DNA from: Lignipirellula cremea
GTDB taxonomy: Bacteria; Planctomycetota; Planctomycetia; Pirellulales; Pirellulaceae
Direction of reading: 5' to 3'
Length of the DNA: 64,000 nucleotides
Assembly (NCBI RefSeq): GCF_007751035.1
Contig: NZ_CP036433.1
Span: 7,111,001 to 7,175,000, forward strand
Shown here piece by piece: positions 3,058 through 33,378 of this stretch (positions are counted from its first letter, which is position 1; each line of letters starts with the position of its first letter). Under the pieces are notes generated by a model. The model made no database searches. It saw only the letters and a list, made by a program, of their open reading frames with translations, and was not told the origin of the DNA. A program made the position numbers and the translations under genes.

Positions 3058-4377
3058 ATGGATCGTCGCAAGTTTCTGCAGCAGTCTTCGACCGGCGTCA
3101 TTGCTGGTCTGGGCGCGGCAGCCCTCGCCAACCAGGCGAAAGCAGCTCCTAGCGAACGCGTGCGAGTCGGCATGATCGGTTCGGCCGGCAGGGCCTACAG
3201 CTTGTGCAGCACCTTCTCCGGCAACCCCAACGTGGAAATCGTGATGGTCGCGGACGTCGACCCTCGCCGCATGCCCAAGGCCCTGCAGAAGATTACCGAG
3301 AACCAGGGACAGGCCCCCAAAACGACCACCGATTTCCGTCATATCATCGACGACGACAGCATCGATGCGATCGTGGTCGGCACGCCCGACCACTGGCATG
3401 CGATCCCCACGATTCTCGGCTGTCTGGCCGGCAAAGACGTGTACGTCGAGAAGCCCGACGGACACAACATTGTCGAAGGCCAGCGGATGGTGGCCGCCGC
3501 CCGCAAGCACGGCCGCGTGGTGCAGATGGGTTCGCAGCACCGCTCGACCGACCGTCTGATCAGCGCGCTCGATTACATTCGCACCGGCGCGCTGGGGAAA
3601 GTGCTGTTCGCCAAAGCCTGGGAAAGCACCCGGCAACGCTCGATCGGCAACCCGCCCGACTCCCAGCCGCCGTCGGGCGTCGATTACGACATGTGGCTGG
3701 GCGCGGCGCCGAAGCGTCCGTTCAATCCGTGCCGCTTCCACGGAAACTGGCGCTGGTTCTTCGACACGGGCACCGGCGACCTGGGGAACGACGGCGTGCA
3801 CCGGCTGGACATGGCCTTCGCCGCCATGAATGCCGCCTGTGAAGCGCAGGGCGATGCGCCCTGCGTGCTGCCCCGGAAGATCTCCGCCATGGGCGGCAAG
3901 CGGTATTTCGACGACGCGCAGGAATTCGCCGATACCCTGCAGGTGGCCTATGAGTACGAATCGGCCACCCCCAAAATCCTCACCTATGAAATGCGGATCT
4001 GGGCTCCCTACGACATGGACGACGAATCCGAAGGCGCCGCCATTTACGGCGACCTGGGCTATATGATCATCGGCAACGAACGCTGGCGCGCCTACAGCAG
4101 CAAAGGCCTGGTGAAAGAAGTCCAAGGCGACTCCTTCGAAGGCCCGCACGTGCAGAACTTTATCGACTGCATCAAATCGCGGAACAAACCGGCCTGCGAT
4201 CTGGAAACGGTCGGGCACCCGGCGTCGCTGCTGTGCCATGCGGGCAATGTGGCCTGGCGCGTGGGACGCAGCTTGACTTTCGACGCCGCGACCGAAACGT
4301 TTGTCGGCGACGAAGAAGCGAACGCCCTTCGCGGTCGGCCCGAATGGCGCAAGCCCTGGGTCTTGCCGGAAGTGTAA
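3058..4377 (+). CDS. Tat-exported Gfo/Idh/MocA-family oxidoreductase
   Basis: NAD(P)-dependent oxidoreductase of the glucose-fructose oxidoreductase family, 439 residues. The start at 3058 has a good ribosome-binding site (GGAGG) and opens with a twin-arginine signal, MDRRKFLQQSS, followed by a hydrophobic stretch ending in AKA. The Rossmann fold begins at VGMIGSAGRAYS; the family signatures VYVEKPDG and DLGNDGVHRLDM (putative catalytic histidine) are present. Tat export with folded cofactor is the rule for many planctomycete members. The substrate cannot be read from sequence; a sugar or cyclitol derivative is typical for the family. No operon partner is visible: the next gene downstream is on the opposite strand. 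Confidence 0.92.
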   Translation: MDRRKFLQQSSTGVIAGLGAAALANQAKAAPSERVRVGMIGSAGRAYSLCSTFSGNPNVEIVMVADVDPRRMPKALQKITENQGQAPKTTTDFRHIIDDDSIDAIVVGTPDHWHAIPTILGCLAGKDVYVEKPDGHNIVEGQRMVAAARKHGRVVQMGSQHRSTDRLISALDYIRTGALGKVLFAKAWESTRQRSIGNPPDSQPPSGVDYDMWLGAAPKRPFNPCRFHGNWRWFFDTGTGDLGNDGVHRLDMAFAAMNAACEAQGDAPCVLPRKISAMGGKRYFDDAQEFADTLQVAYEYESATPKILTYEMRIWAPYDMDDESEGAAIYGDLGYMIIGNERWRAYSSKGLVKEVQGDSFEGPHVQNFIDCIKSRNKPACDLETVGHPASLLCHAGNVAWRVGRSLTFDAATETFVGDEEANALRGRPEWRKPWVLPEV

Positions 4378-4501
4378 ACCGCCCCGCGGCAAACGGATCA
4401 CTTCCGCGTTCGTCCCTCACAAGACGAACGCGGCCGGTCAGGAACGCGAGGGAATTTCCCTGGTGATTCTGGTTTCTTCAGTTTGCGGAATCACCGGCGC
4501 A

Positions 4502-4557
4502 GAAAGTCGACTGACTATCGACTTCCGTCAGTCATGGGTTTTGCGTTCCGAGTGAAA
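4502..4557. repeat. Dispersed repeat R1, divergent copy A
   Basis: GAAAGTCGACTGAC begins at 4502, and GACTGAC (4509-4515) pairs with GTCAGTC (4527-4533). A TTTTGCG...GAGTGAAAG block follows. It shares the GAAAGTCGAC core with the R1 copies at 11.6, 46.5, 51.2, 62.9 and 63.1 kb. It lies between two convergent genes. Confidence 0.5.
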
Positions 4558-4583
4558 GGCGACTAATCCGTCGATTCCGGCAG

Positions 4584-5774
4584 CTATTCACCCGGCGCCC
4601 AGAAGGCGGACTGGCGAACACGTCGCATGATATCGTAACAACAGCGGTAGTCATTAAACGCGTGCGACGTGCCGATCGAATTCGCCACATTCCATTGCTG
4701 CACCTTCACGGACTGGTCGCCCTGGCAATTCCAGGAGCCGACACCAACGCGTCCCATCGCCTCGGGATGGCTGTGGTCGATGAACTTGTAAAACTTCAAA
4801 GCGGAGTCGCTGGTGTTGTAAAAAACCAGCAGCTGGTCGGTATTCTGCAGGGCCTTCCCGTACGGCGCGTGGGGAGCCAGCCAGCCGCAATGACTGGCCG
4901 CCGCCATGAGCACCACGCGAGCCCGCAGCGGTGCGGCGGAAACGCCAGGCAGGGTATGACCGGCCAGGCAACCGCCAGCCGTCATGTGCAGAGCGCCCAG
5001 CACGGAACGGGCTCCAAAGCTATAACCGATCAGGCTGACCGGCGCGGCGGACGGCATCTGTCCCAGCAGCCAGCCCAGATAATACGCTTCGGCGTGAGCC
5101 CGTTCGGCCTTCACGCGATTGTCGCGGATCACGCCGCGGGTCTGGTCGCTGGGCCAGGACCAGATCACCTGCCGCACGGCGGGGCGAGGCTTGTCGGTCT
5201 GTCGCAGCGTCTGGAAGAAGGAGGCGCCCAGGCCGTAGACTTCGTTGCTCTCAATCCGGTTGCCGTGCACCAGAATGACGGTCGGCCGATCGGGACCGGC
5301 TCCCGCGAGAAACTCCTCAATGCTGGCCTGCTGCCAGCACTGGCCGTCATGCTTGCGGACGCTCAATTGCGGAGTGCAATGGCGAGCCGGATACCCCAGG
5401 CGTCGCGTGCTGATGATCCACAGTTCGTCTTCTACCGCAACAGGCGACATGACCAGCGGCATAACCGGCATGACCGGTTCCGCCGTGGCGATCGCGACAG
5501 GCAGCGCCACGGCGGCAACTTGCGATTCCTCGGCGGCCTTGGCGACGCGCTGGCCAGAGTCCGCCGGCTTCGCAGATTTCAGGACGGACGTCTCCGGCGC
5601 ATTTAAAGAGAGCGTCGGGTCCACCACCGGGGCGATCGTTTGGCCGCCGATCGAATTACTATTCGCATCGTTCGACGTTTCGCCGCCGACTGCCGGAGTC
5701 ATCCGGGCGGCACCGGCCGAGAGAACCAGAACAACCAGCAACAGCCGGGCATGCTTCAGGGAAGAAATCTTCAT
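4584..5774 (-). CDS. Exported alpha/beta-hydrolase-fold protein
   Basis: A 396-residue protein with a signal peptide (MKISSLKHARLLLVVLVLSAG) and a roughly 100-residue low-complexity region before the hydrolase domain. The domain contains TVILVHGNRIESNE, the oxyanion-hole HG segment, and the nucleophile elbow SLIGYSFGARS, which fits G-x-S-x-G with serine as nucleophile. A histidine near the C terminus (in IDHSHPEAMG or GTSHAF) could complete the triad. The fold resembles DUF900-type or lipase-like serine hydrolases; the substrate is unknown. The start at 5774 is preferred over 5789 because it opens the signal peptide directly. It is divergent from the lipoprotein gene. Confidence 0.8.
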   Translation of the reverse strand: MKISSLKHARLLLVVLVLSAGAARMTPAVGGETSNDANSNSIGGQTIAPVVDPTLSLNAPETSVLKSAKPADSGQRVAKAAEESQVAAVALPVAIATAEPVMPVMPLVMSPVAVEDELWIISTRRLGYPARHCTPQLSVRKHDGQCWQQASIEEFLAGAGPDRPTVILVHGNRIESNEVYGLGASFFQTLRQTDKPRPAVRQVIWSWPSDQTRGVIRDNRVKAERAHAEAYYLGWLLGQMPSAAPVSLIGYSFGARSVLGALHMTAGGCLAGHTLPGVSAAPLRARVVLMAAASHCGWLAPHAPYGKALQNTDQLLVFYNTSDSALKFYKFIDHSHPEAMGRVGVGSWNCQGDQSVKVQQWNVANSIGTSHAFNDYRCCYDIMRRVRQSAFWAPGE

Positions 5775-25505: not shown

Positions 25506-27446
25506 ATGCGTGCGTTCATCACCGCGTCGGTGTGTGCTTTTGGCCTGTGGGCCAGTTCACTCCCGGCCCAGGAATTTGAGATGCCCCCCAGTCCGCAGAC
25601 GACCGAGTCGGCGGACCCCAATGCGGCAGTCGCCGAAACGACAACCGCTGTCCCTGCGACCGACACGGCGATCGAAGCCAAACCCTTACCCGTAGCAGTC
25701 GCCCCGGCCCAGACCGACGCTCCCGTCGTCCAGCCGATTGAAACTACCGCTCCCCGCGCCATTCCCCCGACGCCGGAAACGATCCCGTTCGAACAGCAGG
25801 CCCAGCCGCTGCCCGCCAATGTGGAGACGGCCCCGGCCGCCACGGAGCAGCAGGCTCCGGCGCCGATCGTCTCCAAGGCCCCGGCCGTCACGGTGCAGCA
25901 GGCTCCGGCCGTAACGGTGCAGCAGGCTCCGGCCGTAACGGTGCAGCAGGCTCCGGCCGTAACGGTGCAGCAGGCTCCGGCCGCGATGGCGGCTCCGCCG
26001 GCCAACGCCCAGCGTTTACCGGCCTCTCCGCAACTGCGAGTGCAGTCAGGCGTTGCGGCTTCGTTGCCGATCGTGTCGGCGGAAACCGTCGGCCCGCCGA
26101 ACATGCTGGTAGGCACGCCCGCTATGTTCCGCGTCAAAGTGACGAACCTGGGCGACGATGTCGCTCGCGATGTGGCTCTGGAAGTCCTGCTTCCGGTTGG
26201 CGCGAAGGATGTCAAAACGGCCCCGCAATGCGTGGAAATCGGCCCCGGCCGACTGCGTTTCGCTCTGGGCGCCCTGGATGTTAAAGCGACCCGCACGCTG
26301 AGCATTCATTTGACGCCCGGCGCCCGCGGCGCCGCCCAGCTGGAAACCCGCGTGGTCTACTCGAGCGCCTCGGCCCTCGGCATGAACGTGCAGCAGCCGC
26401 AACTGAAAATTGAAGCGACCGGCGCCGCCGACGGCGTTTATTCGCAGCAGCTGGAATTCAAAGTCGTGGTGACCAACACGGGCGATGCTCCCTGCCGGAA
26501 CATCCGCGTGCGACAGATTGTTCCCGCCGGCCTGGAAAGCCTGACCGGCGCCAACGACGCCATCCCGCAGCTCAATGCGGGCGAACGCCGCGAACTGACC
26601 TTTGCCGCCCTGCCCAAAGGCGTCGGCGAAGCCAGCGTTCGCTTTGAAGCCACCGCCGACGGCGACCTGCGGGTGTCGACGGTGAAAACGATCAACATCA
26701 CCCGGCCGATGATTGAAGTCTCCACCGAGGGACCTTCGGTCAACTATCTGCAGCGAGAAGGCGTCTATGCGATTGTCGTTGCCAACACGGGAGACGGCCC
26801 GGCCGTGAACGTGCAGGTGATTTCGTCCATCCCGGCTGGCCTGAAAGTCCTGGCGATTGATCGCCCGGCCAAATTCGACCAGGCCAAACAGCAGCTCACC
26901 TGGACACTGGCTTCGATCCCCGTCGGCGGCCAGGAAGTGATGCGGTTCAAGGCCGTCACCACCGCCGAAGGCCAGCTGGTGCATGAAGTCCAGGTGCAAA
27001 CGGCCAGCGGCATGCGGGCCAAAACGCGGCACCTGACCGACGTCATCAGTCGGGCCGATGTCAACATGCAGATCGCCGATTCCCCGGGCCCGATCCAGGT
27101 TGGCGAAGCCGCCATCTTCGAAGTCCAGGTGCGGAACCGCGGCACCAGCGAAGCCCGGAACGTGGAACTGCGGGCCGAACTGCCCTCGGGGATGGGCGCC
27201 GTCCGCTCGTCGGATTATGAAACCCACGCCAGCGAAGTGCGCTTCCCCGTCACCAGCATCGCTCCCGGCGGCAAGCAGATCTTCCGCTTTGAAGCGGTCA
27301 GCAGCGTGCCGGGCGATCAGATCGTGAAGTTCAAACTTTCGGCCGACAGCCTCAGCCGCGAAGTGACCTCGGAAGAAAGCGTTTACTTCTACAAAACGGG
27401 TCGCGAACGCGTCGCCACCCGACCGTTGGAAAAAGCGGCTGAGTAA
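25506..27446 (+). CDS. Secreted DUF11 / conserved-repeat envelope protein
   Basis: A 646-residue exported protein with signal peptide (MRAFITASVCAFGLWASSLPAQ), a Pro/Ala/Gln/Thr-rich stalk (residues about 20-180) and four or five tandem Ig-like DUF11 (TIGR01451) domains, each with the hallmark VxVTNxGDxxxxNVxVxxxxPxG (for example FRVKVTNLGDDVARDV, FKVVVTNTGDAPCRNI, YAIVVANTGDGPAVNV, FEVQVRNRGTSEARNV). Such domains are structural modules of bacterial surface proteins. The stalk contains four tandem copies of a 24-bp unit coding APAVTVQQ. The start at 25506 has GGAGG upstream. A terminator at 27521-27560 follows, so it is probably monocistronic. Confidence 0.88.
   Translation: MRAFITASVCAFGLWASSLPAQEFEMPPSPQTTESADPNAAVAETTTAVPATDTAIEAKPLPVAVAPAQTDAPVVQPIETTAPRAIPPTPETIPFEQQAQPLPANVETAPAATEQQAPAPIVSKAPAVTVQQAPAVTVQQAPAVTVQQAPAVTVQQAPAAMAAPPANAQRLPASPQLRVQSGVAASLPIVSAETVGPPNMLVGTPAMFRVKVTNLGDDVARDVALEVLLPVGAKDVKTAPQCVEIGPGRLRFALGALDVKATRTLSIHLTPGARGAAQLETRVVYSSASALGMNVQQPQLKIEATGAADGVYSQQLEFKVVVTNTGDAPCRNIRVRQIVPAGLESLTGANDAIPQLNAGERRELTFAALPKGVGEASVRFEATADGDLRVSTVKTINITRPMIEVSTEGPSVNYLQREGVYAIVVANTGDGPAVNVQVISSIPAGLKVLAIDRPAKFDQAKQQLTWTLASIPVGGQEVMRFKAVTTAEGQLVHEVQVQTASGMRAKTRHLTDVISRADVNMQIADSPGPIQVGEAAIFEVQVRNRGTSEARNVELRAELPSGMGAVRSSDYETHASEVRFPVTSIAPGGKQIFRFEAVSSVPGDQIVKFKLSADSLSREVTSEESVYFYKTGRERVATRPLEKAAE
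25881..25976 (+). repeat. Four tandem 24-bp coding repeats
   Basis: Four adjacent units (25881-25904, 25905-25928, 25929-25952, 25953-25976) encode PAVTVQQA. The last three are identical, and the first differs by one base (GTCACG instead of GTAACG). They sit in the Pro-rich stalk of the DUF11 protein and mark a site of recent slippage or unequal exchange. Confidence 0.9.
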
Positions 27447-27520
27447 GCCGCCAGAGTAGATTGCCTGGCGCGGTTTCACGCCAGGTAATCGCCCCCAAGA
27501 AATGCGAACGAACCTCCGCC

Positions 27521-27560
27521 TCCGGCCAGCAGCCCCACGCGTCTGGCCGGGGGCTTTTTT
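27521..27560 (+). terminator. Intrinsic terminator of the DUF11 gene
   Basis: CCGGCCAG (27522-27529) pairs with CTGGCCGG (27543-27550), followed by GGGCTTTTTT on the plus strand. A smaller hairpin (CCTGGCG/CGCCAGG) lies at about 27467-27485. Confidence 0.75.
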
Positions 27561-27686
27561 GCGCTAGCCGGCAAGGGGTGGTCAGAAAAGATCGGAAAAA
27601 AGAGATGCGGCCAAAGCCATCCCGCAAACTTTCCTCCGTCCGCGGGGCGCCTGCCGGCTGTCGACGGCGGCAGGGCGACCATTTCT

Positions 27687-28478
27687 CTACGTCCCCCGGC
27701 CATAGCGTTCGGTGAATGCATCGCACAGGACGCGCAGGCTCGGATCCAGCAACCGGCGGGCGGCTCCCCGCAGTTCGGCCGGCGGCGTGCCAAAAAACGC
27801 TTCGGCCAGGGCGCCTGCCATGCAGGCCAGCGTATCGGCGTCGCCTCCCAGGGAGATGGCCAGACGCAGGGCGTGTTCAAAATCGTCCGCCTCCAGGAAC
27901 GCCCTGATTGCCTGGGGCACGGTGCCCTGGCAGGAGGAATCAAAAACATATTCGGCCCGCTGGTCGTCGATTGAGCGTTCCAGCTCGTAGCCGAATTCCT
28001 GCGTCAGGTACGCGGCAATCTGGGGACGATCCATGCCGGTCCGGGCCAGGAACACTCCGGCGGCGATTGCTTGCGCCCCTTTGACGCCTTCGGGATGGTT
28101 ATGGGTGACCATCGCCGTGCGTCGGGCGTGCAGCAGCACCTGGTCAAGCGTGGAATACCGCCAGCCGACCGGGCTGACCCGCATGGCGGAGCCATTGCCG
28201 TAACTGTTATACGGTTCCTCCCGTTCACTGAAGGCCCATTCGCGATACGCCTTGCCGTAGCCGGCCAGCGGATAAGCCACGGTGTACGCTTTCAGCCGTT
28301 CGATCAGATCGTGGTCATACAGCAGGCTGTCGGCCACGGCGATCGTCAGCACGGTGTCGTCGGTAAATCGGGCGTCTTCGGCGACCAGCGGCTGGAAATC
28401 GACGCGCCGCACCGGCATCCAGTCACGTCGTCCCTCATAGACCGAGCCGACAATGTCGCCAATAATCGCACCCCACAT
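27687..28478 (-). CDS. ADP-ribosylglycohydrolase family protein
   Basis: A 263-residue enzyme of the ARH / crystallin J1 / DraG family, which removes ADP-ribose from proteins or nucleic acids using two magnesium ions. Metal-binding signatures are complete: GAIIGDIVGSVYEG at the N terminus, FTDDTVLTIAVADSLL with the TDDT ligands, and GGDADTLACMAGALAEA near the C terminus. The frame extends upstream, but the family start is the ATG at 28478 (MWGAIIGD), which has AGGCGAG before it. The gene is divergent from a caspase-fold protein with a 345-bp shared upstream region. No ADP-ribosyltransferase gene is visible in the window, so the target is unknown. Confidence 0.92.
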   Translation of the reverse strand: MWGAIIGDIVGSVYEGRRDWMPVRRVDFQPLVAEDARFTDDTVLTIAVADSLLYDHDLIERLKAYTVAYPLAGYGKAYREWAFSEREEPYNSYGNGSAMRVSPVGWRYSTLDQVLLHARRTAMVTHNHPEGVKGAQAIAAGVFLARTGMDRPQIAAYLTQEFGYELERSIDDQRAEYVFDSSCQGTVPQAIRAFLEADDFEHALRLAISLGGDADTLACMAGALAEAFFGTPPAELRGAARRLLDPSLRVLCDAFTERYGRGT

Positions 28479-28823
28479 GGTTGGCTCGCCTGGAAAAATT
28501 GAGAGAAGGTCGCTCACCGCCGGACTACCGGCCAGGATGCTGCGCGCGACTCGCGGACATACGTATCGTTGGGCGGCTGGTCGGCCAATTGCATCGCAAA
28601 CTTCCTGCGATTCTAAACCTTTCGCCAGGCTGTGCGAATGCCGGGCGGCAGGTTGCTTGCGGCGCAGCCCCAGGCAGCGACAATAGGAAAGTCCCATCCC
28701 AGGCAGACCGCCCCAGGCAGGCTAACGGGCAAGACACGACGCCGGCCTGGAAGCGTCCTGGCGGATCTTCTCTGTGGGATGGCGGCATGTATCCAGGCGA
28801 CACGTTTTTTCGGAGTGAACGGA
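28479..28823. other. Divergent upstream region of ADP-ribosylglycohydrolase and caspase-like genes
   Basis: These 345 bases must hold both promoters. Open frames run through it in several phases, but none has a start with a ribosome-binding site and a recognisable product. No repeat is seen. Confidence 0.4.
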
Positions 28824-30305
28824 GTGAAAGTATCGCTGTTGATTGCCGTCGAAGAGTACGCCGATGCGCAACTACCCCCCGTCAAGTTCGCCGCGGCTGA
28901 CGCCGAAGCGATGGCCAAGGCGCTAGAACCGCACGGGTTTGAAGCGGCCGACCGCATGCTCCTGCTGCAGGGCCAGGCGACCCGCACCACCGTGGAGTCC
29001 CGACTCCGCCGCGCGCTGCGGGCCGCGGCCGACGACGATGTTGTCTGCTTGTATTTTGCTGGTGTCGGATTCTCCCTTAACGGCCGCAACTTCCTCGCCT
29101 GCCATGATACGCAAAGCGGCGACCTGGAGGCGACCAGTATTGCGCTGGACTGGCTGCTGGACCTGCTGGCCGACTGCGAAGCAGAAAGCGTGGTGCTGCT
29201 GCTGGATGCGACTCCGCTGGTTCCACCGGACGCAGCCCCGGACCAGGCCGGGACCGACGATCTGCTCGACGAAGAACTGGCCGCTTTCTTCGAGCAGCAG
29301 CAACGCTGCGTTTGCCTGGCCGCCCGGCAAACGGGCGAGGTCTCCTGGCCTAATCGCCAGCAGAAGCACGGCGCCTGGGCGAACCACCTGCTAGAAGCCT
29401 GGTCCGGCACGGCGACCGGGGCGCTGGCCGGCGGCGCCCTGCTCACAGCCGCTTCCCTGCAGCGTTACCTGGAAGGGGCCGTTCCGCGGAGCCTACGGGC
29501 CGCCTTTACCGATCGGAAGCAGCAAACGCCCACACTGTACGCCAAGGCGGGGGTTGATTTCCCGCTGGCCGACTTTCGCGATATTCCGCCCGACGCAGCC
29601 GCCAGCAGTCGCCCCAGCGCCCAGCAGATGCTGCGCGTGCGGCTGGTGCGGCAGAAGTCGCATCCTGTCAAAGAGCTGGCCGGTTTTCGATCCCATCACC
29701 GTGTTCCCGATAGTGCGGGCCACTTCGCCGATTCGTTTGTCTCCAGTCTGGCGGAAGAGCAGATCCGCGCCGACCTGGAGCAAATCCACCTGCAGTTGCG
29801 CACAGCGTTTCGCTTCAAACGTCTCGATGTGCAGATGAATGGACCGGTCGATGGGGGCGGGTCTCTGATTACGCCGTTCTTTACCTATGCAGTCAGTGTC
29901 ATCTCGGATCCCGACGACCCGGGCTCCGTCATCTGGCAATGGGAAGTGATGGACATGAAAGAGTCCGAGCCAATCTTCTCAGACGCTTTCGCCCAGGTGT
30001 TTGGCGATCTGTTTGATACGATCGAATTCACGCCGTCCCAGTCCGTCGAGCTGACTGACTTTATCGACCGTGTAGAACAGCTTGACGAAGAGCGAATTCA
30101 GATCAACTATGATCCGGCCGCTACCTGGTGTGAACTGGAAATCATTAATATCGCCGGCCTGGTGCATATCACTCCGTCGATCGTGCAGATCGTCCAGCGG
30201 CATCCCCAACCGCCGCGTCTGCTGCTGCAGTCGTTTCTCGACATTCAGCACATACTCATCGACGCAAACGCTCACAGCCTGCTCCCGTTTCACGGCAAAC
30301 AGTAA
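28824..30305 (+). CDS. Caspase-fold pseudoenzyme with a C-terminal domain of unknown function
   Basis: A 493-residue protein; the N-terminal 230 residues fit the bacterial caspase (peptidase C14-like) fold: KVSLLIAVEEYADAQLPPVKFAAADAEAMAKAL, then a DDVVCLYFAGVGF strand and a VVLLLDATPLV strand. In active members these strands read YFSGHG and LLDAC. Here the histidine position holds Val81 and the cysteine position Thr130, so proteolysis is not expected. The remaining ~230 residues (from about 270) match no family I recognise. The GTG at 28824 has GGAG at the right distance; in-frame starts upstream (ATG 28779, frame open to 28632) add sequence that does not look like this fold. Divergent from the ADP-ribosylglycohydrolase gene. 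Confidence 0.7.
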   Translation: MKVSLLIAVEEYADAQLPPVKFAAADAEAMAKALEPHGFEAADRMLLLQGQATRTTVESRLRRALRAAADDDVVCLYFAGVGFSLNGRNFLACHDTQSGDLEATSIALDWLLDLLADCEAESVVLLLDATPLVPPDAAPDQAGTDDLLDEELAAFFEQQQRCVCLAARQTGEVSWPNRQQKHGAWANHLLEAWSGTATGALAGGALLTAASLQRYLEGAVPRSLRAAFTDRKQQTPTLYAKAGVDFPLADFRDIPPDAAASSRPSAQQMLRVRLVRQKSHPVKELAGFRSHHRVPDSAGHFADSFVSSLAEEQIRADLEQIHLQLRTAFRFKRLDVQMNGPVDGGGSLITPFFTYAVSVISDPDDPGSVIWQWEVMDMKESEPIFSDAFAQVFGDLFDTIEFTPSQSVELTDFIDRVEQLDEERIQINYDPAATWCELEIINIAGLVHITPSIVQIVQRHPQPPRLLLQSFLDIQHILIDANAHSLLPFHGKQ

Positions 30306-30839
30306 TCACCAAGTGGCCAGAACCTGGGGCTTCCCGTGTGCGGAACCTAAGTTAACAGGAGAGTTAACACAGGGGCCTGTTCGTGCTCTTTTTTTCTGCT
30401 GGCTCCGGCGGTTTGGAAGCGGCCGGATAAAGCGTCTGGACAGCCAGTTGCGTGTAACGCGCGGACCAGAATGGTTTTCGTTCTGCTATGATACCCATGC
30501 TGGCAGGCGATTCCTGGGCGGACCCGTGACGGCTTCACCCAGGATCTCACAGGCCGAAGCTGGAGCTGTGCGGTTTCCCGTAGCAGCAAACAGTCTTTTG
30601 CCACACCTGCGATTGCAAATTCGAAGAGTCGAAACCTGAAAGACCAGCGCGGAGTGTTCCGAAAAGTGTCGCAAAAACAAGGGGGAAACGACGCCAGGGC
30701 AACGCTTTCGGGGCGTTAACTCATTCCTCCTCTATCGGCCTTGTGATACGACTTTGAGCGGGTAAGTTAAGCGGCTGGTCATCTCGCGGCTTAGGGTTGG
30801 CTTTCGTACAATAGGCGTTTTGCCCTGAGGAGCAGCAGA
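30306..30839. other. Intergenic region upstream of the DtxR-type regulator
   Basis: This 534-bp region has CCTAAGTTAAC at 30346-30356 (which also occurs as GTTAACTTAGG at about 62991) but no ORF or RNA that I can support. A TACAAT near 30807 could be the -10 box of the regulator gene, without a good -35. GAGGAG just before 30840 is its ribosome-binding site. Confidence 0.4.
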
Positions 30840-31508
30840 GTGGCAAGCTTGACCGTCGAGAACTATATAAAAACGATCTATCAAATTTGCATTGACCAGA
30901 ACGATACGCCGGCAGGGACAGGAAAAATCGCTGATATCCTTGGGGTTTCGCCTGGCACGGTCACCAGCATGCTCAAGGGGCTTTCCGAATCGGGGATGGT
31001 GACTTACACCCCTTATACGGGCGTGATCTTAACCGAGTCGGGCCGAAGTCTTGCGCTCCGCGTACTGCGACGCCATCGTTTGATTGAGCTGTTTCTCACG
31101 CGGACCTTGGCGCTTTCCTGGGACGAGGTGCACGCCGAAGCGGAGAATATGGAGCACTCCGTCAGTGACTTCCTGATCGACCGGATCGATGCGTATCTGG
31201 GTTATCCGGAAAACGATCCGCACGGAGATCCCATCCCGCGCGCCGACGGCACCGTTCCCCTGTCCAACGGGGAAAGCCTGGCCGACCTGAAAATCAATGA
31301 TCATTTCTATCTGCTCCGCGTGCTCGATCAATCGCAAAGTTTTCTGCGCTTCCTGAGCGAAGCAGGGTTGGAATTGAATTCCCAGGGCCGCGTCGTTTCC
31401 AACAGTCCCGAAGGCGGCGTGATCTCCATCGAAGTCGACGGACGCCCCACCACGCTTTCGCATGAAGCGGCCAAAAAACTGTTCGTGGCCATGACCGAAA
31501 GCCCTTAG
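30840..31508 (+). CDS. DtxR/MntR-family metal-dependent transcriptional regulator
   Basis: A 222-residue repressor-type regulator that senses Fe(II) or Mn(II). The N-terminal winged helix-turn-helix is typical (TVENYIKTIYQI ... TGKIADILGVSPGTVTSMLKGLSESGMVTYTPYTGVILTESG). It is followed by the dimerisation/metal domain (HRLIELFLTRTLALSWDEVHAEAENMEHSVSD, with the Glu and His ligands expected in H-x-x-x-E and E-x-x-H-x-S) and an SH3-like FeoA-type C-terminal domain. The start is GTG at 30840 with GAGGAG upstream. No metal transporter gene is adjacent, so its regulon lies elsewhere. Confidence 0.92.
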   Translation: MASLTVENYIKTIYQICIDQNDTPAGTGKIADILGVSPGTVTSMLKGLSESGMVTYTPYTGVILTESGRSLALRVLRRHRLIELFLTRTLALSWDEVHAEAENMEHSVSDFLIDRIDAYLGYPENDPHGDPIPRADGTVPLSNGESLADLKINDHFYLLRVLDQSQSFLRFLSEAGLELNSQGRVVSNSPEGGVISIEVDGRPTTLSHEAAKKLFVAMTESP

Positions 31509-32681: not shown

Positions 32682-32775
32682 CAGGTTGTTTTCTCACTCA
32701 CCGAGCAAGGAGGTCGCTGGGTGCGGAACTTCGGTCTGATCTTTTCGTTCTTTGGGCCCACAGGACTCTGGATCT

Positions 32776-33378
32776 ATGTCGCTCGACCAACTCACGCGGA
32801 AACAGCTGGCCGTTTATAACTTTGTCCGCGACCTGATCGTGAATCGAGGTTATGGCCCCACCGTGCGGGAGATTGGAACCCAGTTCGATATCAGCTCGCC
32901 CAACGGCGTGGTGTGCCATCTGAAAGCGCTGGAGAAAAAAGGGCTCATCAGGCGCGACCCCCGCAAATCGCGAGCGATCGAACTGACCGAGGATCCTTAC
33001 GATGACAGCGGCCTGCCGCTGCGAGGGATGGTCGCCGCCGGCGTCATGCGGGAAGCGATCGAAGACGATCAGCGCATTAACTTTGCCGACATGTTCAAAG
33101 AAGAGCGAAACCACTTTGTGCTGAAAGTCTCGGGCGACTCCATGATTGAGGCCCACATCGACGACGGCGACTACGTGGTGGTGCGCAAGCAGAACACGGC
33201 CAATAAAGGCCAGATGGTCGTGGCGCAAACTTCCGACGGCGAGGCCACACTCAAGTACTGGTTCCCGGAAGCGACCCGCATCCGCCTGCAGCCCGCCAAT
33301 TCTGAGATGGAGCCGATCTACGTCAAAGACGCCAGCGTACTCGGCGTGGTCGTCGGCGTCGTCCGCAACTACGGCTAA
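32776..33378 (+). CDS. lexA: LexA repressor
   Basis: A 200-residue SOS repressor that self-cleaves when stimulated by RecA filaments. The N-terminal winged helix (LTRKQLAVYNFVRDLIVNRGYGPTVREIGTQF, SSPNGVVCHLKALEKKGLI) is the LexA DNA-binding domain. The cleavage site lies in MVAAGVM (Ala88-Gly89), and the catalytic dyad is Ser122 in SGDSMIE and Lys160 in ATLKYW. The ATG at 32776 is preferred over a TTG at 32752. It is monocistronic here, with a palindrome at 32664-32681 as a possible autoregulatory operator. No other SOS gene is near. Confidence 0.95.
   Translation: MSLDQLTRKQLAVYNFVRDLIVNRGYGPTVREIGTQFDISSPNGVVCHLKALEKKGLIRRDPRKSRAIELTEDPYDDSGLPLRGMVAAGVMREAIEDDQRINFADMFKEERNHFVLKVSGDSMIEAHIDDGDYVVVRKQNTANKGQMVVAQTSDGEATLKYWFPEATRIRLQPANSEMEPIYVKDASVLGVVVGVVRNYG

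Follow-up and report, generated by a model that had tools for sequence, protein, structure and literature searches.

The gene at positions 28824 to 30305 of the window (the whole analysed stretch of 64,000 nucleotides from the 9.57 Mb, single-contig genome of Lignipirellula cremea) encodes a caspase-fold protein without the catalytic His-Cys dyad, followed by a C-terminal domain (CTD) of an unnamed family. Comparison of sequences revealed this architecture in further planctomycetes, together with a recurrent loss of the dyad, forms without any caspase part, the lack of a conserved neighbouring gene and, in three alphaproteobacterial relatives, a pairing with a pP_pnuc nuclease. The explanation we tentatively prefer is that the CTD, predicted to form two tandem lobes like those of the TATA-binding protein (TBP), is the constant binding part of the family and most likely recognises a ligand or partner, and that the caspase module fused N-terminally in many members would act as its effector. 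In the lineage of the window, and repeatedly elsewhere, the dyad was lost with the fold and the acidic pocket kept, and the dyad-less caspase probably now works as a binding or regulatory module. A use of the family as effector in immunity or cell death is suggested because the alphaproteobacterial relative is paired with pP_pnuc and once lies among defence genes, while the planctomycetes seem to run the family as a single-gene, partly domesticated function. Ligand binding, regulation and domestication are thereby what we infer. The features of the locus are as follows.

27687..28478, minus strand: ADP-ribosylglycohydrolase, divergent neighbour, not a conserved pair (PF03747, 6.2e-36; not found in the 31 other neighbourhoods fetched)
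28479..28823, no strand: intergenic region of 345 bp between the divergent genes (gene coordinates)
28824..30305, plus strand: caspase-fold pseudoprotease with CTD, 493 aa, GTG start (open reading frame calls, PF00656, AlphaFold, starts of relatives)
28824..29609, plus strand: caspase-like domain, residues 1-262 (PF00656, 1.2e-10; Z of 24.0 to metacaspase-4)
29064..29066, plus strand: codon of Val81 at the position of the catalytic His (alignment of 59 proteins)
29211..29213, plus strand: codon of Thr130 at the position of the catalytic Cys (alignment of 59 proteins)
29616..30302, plus strand: CTD, residues 265-493, unnamed family with a predicted two-lobe TBP-like fold (AlphaFold pLDDT 94.0, pTM 0.89; VIA-align)
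29637..30005, plus strand: lobe 1 of the CTD, residues 272-394, in the order strand, two helices, four strands, helices (model secondary structure; boundaries set by the authors)
30012..30263, plus strand: lobe 2 of the CTD, residues 397-480, in the order strand, helix, four strands, helix (model secondary structure; boundaries set by the authors)

Based on the alignment with relatives, the gene starts at the GTG at 28824 and not at the start of the longer open reading frame at 28632. Residues 2-240 of the protein match PF00656 in Pfam (1.2e-10), and the AlphaFold model of the full-length protein (pLDDT 93.2, pTM 0.69, alignment of 89 rows) showed the best agreement among the solved caspases with Arabidopsis metacaspase-4 (Z of 24.0, rmsd of 2.2 over 215 residues). 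Both results confirm the caspase-like fold proposed in the initial annotation. The Pfam match reaches position 225 of the 233 in the profile, and residues 1-254 of the model could be aligned with whole caspases, so the protein may also contain a p10-like part. In the alignment of 59 proteins, the columns comprising His and Cys in the intact relatives are occupied by Val81 and Thr130, just as had been annotated, and the window protein comprises no Cys or His at either position or shifted beside them. A further protein of the same genome (L002, G000:C1:7836606-7840190) appears caspase-like by eye, with GHG but LLDASHHG at the expected Cys, and is maybe a second pseudo-caspase.

A search with the full-length window protein in 296 genomes of the order gave matches in 54 at 1e-8, mostly to other caspases. 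The last 148 residues were searched in 397 genomes of the class, 88 of which matched, and the CTD in 343 genomes of the phylum with 7 matches, 4 of them outside the class. After removal of identical rows the family set comprised 91 CTD-bearing rows including one for the window. A caspase shares the frame of the CTD in 60 of them, truncated by the contig end in one case, and is missing from the frame in the other 31. Among the latter, L103 is located at the end of a contig and probably represents one half of a fused protein, leaving 30 standalone rows. That the standalone CTDs are in general halves of split genes was considered and rejected, as the fetched stretches contain no caspase; only for L103 is it probable that one half was cut off by contig ends. 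In 30 of the 91 rows the CTD stands without a caspase, so it is the CTD and not proteolysis that defines the family, as judged from sequence. In the taxonomic family of the window 18 of 119 genomes contained the CTD; of the 19 places concerned, 14 lack a caspase in frame. In the families f22 and f23 it was found in 19 of 120 and 46 of 95 genomes, respectively, and in two genera (g125 and g141) every sampled genome carried the gene (19 of 19 and 6 of 6). This represents an unannotated bacterial domain in three planctomycete families with a share of 15-48% of the sampled genomes. One genome (G484) contains two members, L087 and L088, only one of which has kept the dyad (the protein of L087 stands in the alignment as L062). 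The search of genome contigs with the window protein yielded no relative, phage records gave no match, and viral contigs searched with the Agrobacterium protein described below likewise gave no relative; the spread outside the planctomycetes is under-sampled.

The question whether the loss of His and Cys is conserved among homologues can be answered in the sense that the loss recurs. The alignment of the caspase-CTD proteins, except for L133 with its caspase cut by the contig end, showed the complete His-Cys dyad in 7 of 59, only His in 9, only Cys in 2 and neither residue in 41, in an uneven sample to which one genus code contributes 18 of the 59 rows. On the CTD tree, a quick one with several long branches, the His column must have changed at least 8 times and the Cys column at least 7 times, besides at least 7 changes between fused and standalone forms, 3 of which are forced by well supported branches. 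The reading of an inactive caspase fold attached to a CTD of an unrecognised family is supported. A dyad at a shifted position, considered from the beginning as an objection, is absent in the window protein; for three of the His-only proteins (L041, L096 and L136), in which a Cys immediately precedes the aligned column, a shift by one residue is possible. In g125 and g141 all 23 aligned proteins are dyad-less with Arg/Asp (21) or Arg/Glu (2) at the two columns, the remaining two of the 25 being fragments. Altogether, caspase activity appears as a dispensable part in this family, which is kept, lost on one or both sides or removed, with the tail staying in place. Among the dyad-less pairs, the 8 of smallest dS (0.16-0.50) gave a dN/dS of 0.05-0.33 for the caspase part. 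Over 689 pairs with a dS below 1.6 the median was 0.56, which we think reflects saturation of the simple method; the window itself has no close relative for this comparison.

Among the 41 dyad-less proteins, D128 is kept in 37 (with Glu in 2 more) and D26 in 31 (with Glu in 3 more), and D95 is kept in 59 of 59. This retention of D128 leaves room for the role of a sensor or scaffold that had been proposed for the pseudo-caspase. Two conserved Asp residues of the pocket are described in a study on other pseudo-orthocaspases (Klemencic et al. 2019, PMC6426788), and in our reading D26 and D128 are their equivalents. The pseudo-orthocaspases of that study share with the window protein the caspase fold without the dyad, the acidic pocket residues and an extra C-terminal region. 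They come mostly from cyanobacteria and alphaproteobacteria and carry Tyr-Ser or similar pairs, whereas the window has Val/Thr and one clade Arg/Asp, and the word 'planctomycetes' is absent from the main text of the study; moreover, in the family of the window the CTD is the defining part and is also found alone. The nearest named caspase family is that of the EACC1-associated caspases (NF047832), to which the window protein scores 79.4 bits and thus below the cutoff of 140, and which is matched at E 0.01 by 55 of 89 family members, 59 of the 89 having a caspase. Compared to the EACC1-associated caspases with their many different C-termini, as described by Kaur et al. (2020, PMC7159879), the family of the window has one fixed CTD, and no conserved partner gene was seen for it in planctomycetes. 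According to the same study, approximately 70% of the caspase domains in effector position are inactive in one class of bacterial conflict systems; a dead caspase is therefore not new in itself.

The expectation of an unrecognised C-terminal domain of about 230 residues proved correct, since the CTD comprises about 229 residues and its sequence matched no family of Pfam, NCBIfam or PADLOC and no PDB entry. Among 31 scanned members no Pfam match exceeded the threshold (only a sub-threshold GapR was noted), the NCBIfam and PADLOC families listed for 89 members include none for the CTD except for one chance-like NCBIfam match in one member, and the best match to sequences of solved structures reached only E 1.5. 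The near-invariant residues of the family alignment include Arg326, Arg333, Pro351, Asp415, Glu418 and Leu467. The domain is acidic, with a net charge of -14 in the window, the means being -4.5 for the 59 fused and -9.2 for the 30 standalone proteins. The structure prediction called for in the initial annotation gave an AlphaFold model of the CTD alone (pLDDT 94.0, pTM 0.89) with two predicted beta-alpha-beta4-alpha repeats, which run as strand, two helices, four strands and helices, followed by strand, helix, four strands and helix; by profile comparison the two halves show no match to each other (E 0.19). The strand and helix order of both repeats is what we take to be that of TBP, and based on the models the CTD is predicted to fold as two TBP-like lobes. 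Earlier work on TBP-like domains in bacteria is reportedly due to Brindefalk et al.

In the structure comparison of the CTD model by VIA-align, the first 18 rows were TBPs with Z of 8.0-6.6, which is borderline, as the tool itself warns that a best Z of 7-8 is common without kinship; the next row had a Z of 5.8, and the rows from there downward include single-lobe folds such as a Bet v1-like protein, KA1 and phosphoglucomutase. The best fits to TBPs comprise either 86 of the 229 residues at 2.8 Å (4roc_B) or 127-137 residues at 6.0-6.3 Å (7o4i_O with 137 at 6.3 Å). Foldseek against the PDB gave a best E of 1.7e-3 to proteins other than TBP. In the viral set the best E, 7.2e-5, belonged to an unnamed protein, and an entry with the name TATA box binding protein had an E of 0.017. 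The structure lists for the CTD model thus contain nothing far above background, and families missing from them are not thereby excluded. A sequence homology of CTD and TBP was tried and rejected as unsupported: the best P in hhalign was 0.089, the score was reached by 29 of 150 column shuffles for lobe 2 and by 95 of 150 for lobe 1, and for both lobes the reversed profile outscored the real one. In the genome of the window, PF00352 gave no match at E 1. The likeness to TBP (PF00352) lies in the predicted strand and helix order in two repeats, whereas the CTD has no sequence match to it, is acidic, occurs fused to a caspase or alone, and is bacterial.

A tblastn search of plasmids returned two Agrobacterium records of the same length. 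The encoded protein of 521 aa shows an intact dyad (YYAGHGF and FIDAC) and matches the CTD profile with 56.6 bits over positions 15-156 of 227. Searching plasmids with the Agrobacterium CTD returned the same two records only, and a search with the CTD of L062 returned none. Together with the relatives from Woodsholea maritima and Pacificimonas pallii, the profile matches amount to 56-58 bits over about the first two thirds of the profile, and the match stops short of the end of lobe 2. All three relatives adjoin a pP_pnuc nuclease (PF18165, 5.8e-42; PF18166, 7.8e-40; Aga_Nuclease in PADLOC), forming the same nuclease-caspase pair, and in two of the three loci, among them the Agrobacterium plasmid, the two genes overlap by 4 nt. 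According to the annotation the pair on the Agrobacterium plasmid is flanked by AbiE genes and a restriction enzyme, and according to PADLOC also by GajA/GajB-like (Gabija-like) genes; a scan of the Woodsholea locus found AbiEi near the pair. Two of the three relatives have an intact dyad. In Pacificimonas the Cys position reads Arg and therefore a loss of the dyad happens there too. Near the planctomycete genes no pP_pnuc was detected among 3896 six-frame open reading frames.

In the window, the ADP-ribosylglycohydrolase (PF03747, 6.2e-36) and the shared upstream region of 345 bp (28479-28823) are present as initially annotated. The functional link drawn from this arrangement is not supported, as the enzyme was found by tblastn in 0 of the 31 other family neighbourhoods fetched. 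One promoter-like site with 9 of 12 positions lies on the minus strand at 28638-28610, with 3 such sites in 27400-30900 compared to 0.7 expected, and Rfam found nothing in 27000-31000. Throughout the 29 of 31 regions examined, neighbour families recur in at most 5 loci, either in few close relatives or in scattered places, and in the 12 regions of g125 and g141 no family besides the gene itself occurs in more than 3. With no generally conserved neighbour family, the planctomycete gene behaves as a single-gene unit. The neighbours in the window look like housekeeping genes by eye. A LexA-like SOS repressor is located about 2.4 kb downstream (32752-33378), identified by eye from the translation.

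Several other explanations have to be weighed against the proposed one. The idea that the gene forms a working pair with the ADP-ribosylglycohydrolase, in which the pseudo-caspase senses or scaffolds ADP-ribosylation under a common control region, draws on the divergent orientation over 345 bp; with the enzyme missing from all other neighbourhoods fetched and no generally conserved neighbour, we regard it as very improbable. A decaying relic, whose caspase domain drifts after the loss of activity, would fit the many losses of the dyad, the many members without a caspase part and the median dN/dS of 0.56. It is nevertheless improbable, as the frames are open and full-length, all 25 sampled genomes of two genera contain the gene, which is dyad-less in the 23 aligned, dN/dS is as low as 0.05-0.33 in the closest dyad-less pairs, and the pocket residues are kept. 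A further explanation, which we consider rather unlikely, would be that the protein as it stands is antiphage in planctomycetes, with the dead caspase as bait or adaptor for another protease. The relative among defence genes on the Agrobacterium plasmid and near AbiEi in Woodsholea, the patchy occurrence within the taxonomic family of the window (18 of 119) and the inactive caspases reported in effector position of bacterial conflict systems in PMC7159879 point in this direction, but the neighbours in the window look like housekeeping genes and are not conserved, and in two genera the gene is not patchy at all, being present in every sampled genome.

It is also conceivable, if unlikely, that the CTD is a true two-lobe saddle of the TBP type that binds nucleic acid, which would make the caspase-CTD protein a nucleic-acid sensor with a protease effector in the intact members and a dead regulator in the window. 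The predicted double beta-alpha-beta4-alpha topology, the TBPs in the first 18 rows ahead of the next Z of 5.8, the viral TATA box binding protein among the weak Foldseek matches and the nuclease partner at three loci are consistent with such a saddle. On the other hand, the Z values lie at the stated background of the tool, the best fits cover either 86 of 229 residues or fit at no better than 6.0-6.3 Å, the best Foldseek values belong to other or unnamed proteins, PF00352, hhalign, shuffles and the reversed profile give no sequence support, and the charge of -14 in the window speaks against a generally basic surface. Quite unlikely is the further-reaching proposal that a TBP-type saddle with two lobes exists in bacteria, where it would serve a caspase/nuclease immune module as its constant sensor for nucleic acids or ligands, and that the planctomycetes have taken it over as a regulator, often with a dead caspase or none. 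If true, this would go against the literature, in which TBP homologues of bacteria are described as one-lobed, and bear on the origin of TBP. Because PMC7221094 (2020) describes bacterial TBP homologues as lacking the two-lobe form, the predicted fold of the CTD deserves an experimental structure. The tentatively preferred explanation, a constant binding CTD with a caspase effector that became a binding or regulatory module in the window lineage, has its own difficulties. With neither a conserved neighbour nor pP_pnuc in planctomycetes, a defence role is drawn by analogy with three loci; the occurrence in the window's own family is patchy, unlike that of a domesticated core gene; the median dN/dS is 0.56; the alphaproteobacterial match ends before the end of lobe 2; and the tree is quick with long branches and an uneven sample.

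In the literature searched, which mostly leaves subscription journals outside its coverage, no recognised description of this CTD or of a combination of caspase with pP_pnuc or with TBP was found. A 2012 survey of prokaryotic caspase homologues (PMC3501461) may touch on planctomycetes. As far as the searched literature reaches, what is new comprises the domain with its predicted fold, the dyad loss that recurs in one fixed architecture and the exchange with Lit beside the nuclease. This exchange was observed in homologues of the nuclease, which are present in 57 plasmid records: 3 of the 12 neighbourhoods fetched (L147-L149) comprise an adjacent Lit-family gene, confirmed by PADLOC for L147 and annotated as two pieces in L148, and none of the 12 contains a caspase of this kind or the CTD. 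The pair of pP_pnuc and Lit-family protease on rhizobial plasmids resembles the three alphaproteobacterial relatives in its two-gene layout, with a protease-family gene in the slot of the caspase-CTD gene, whereas Lit is no caspase and has no CTD, and the pair was not found near the planctomycete genes. The observations link caspase-fold proteins with a pP_pnuc nuclease and with phage defence in a way that can be tested. Two additional genes (4439-5011 and 3390-4403) lie upstream of the nuclease-caspase pair of L144 and maybe belong to the same module. They encode a 190-aa protein, for which Pfam and PADLOC gave no match, and a protein resembling restriction endonucleases, with a sub-threshold match to Hjc, and are 97% and 94% identical in Woodsholea.
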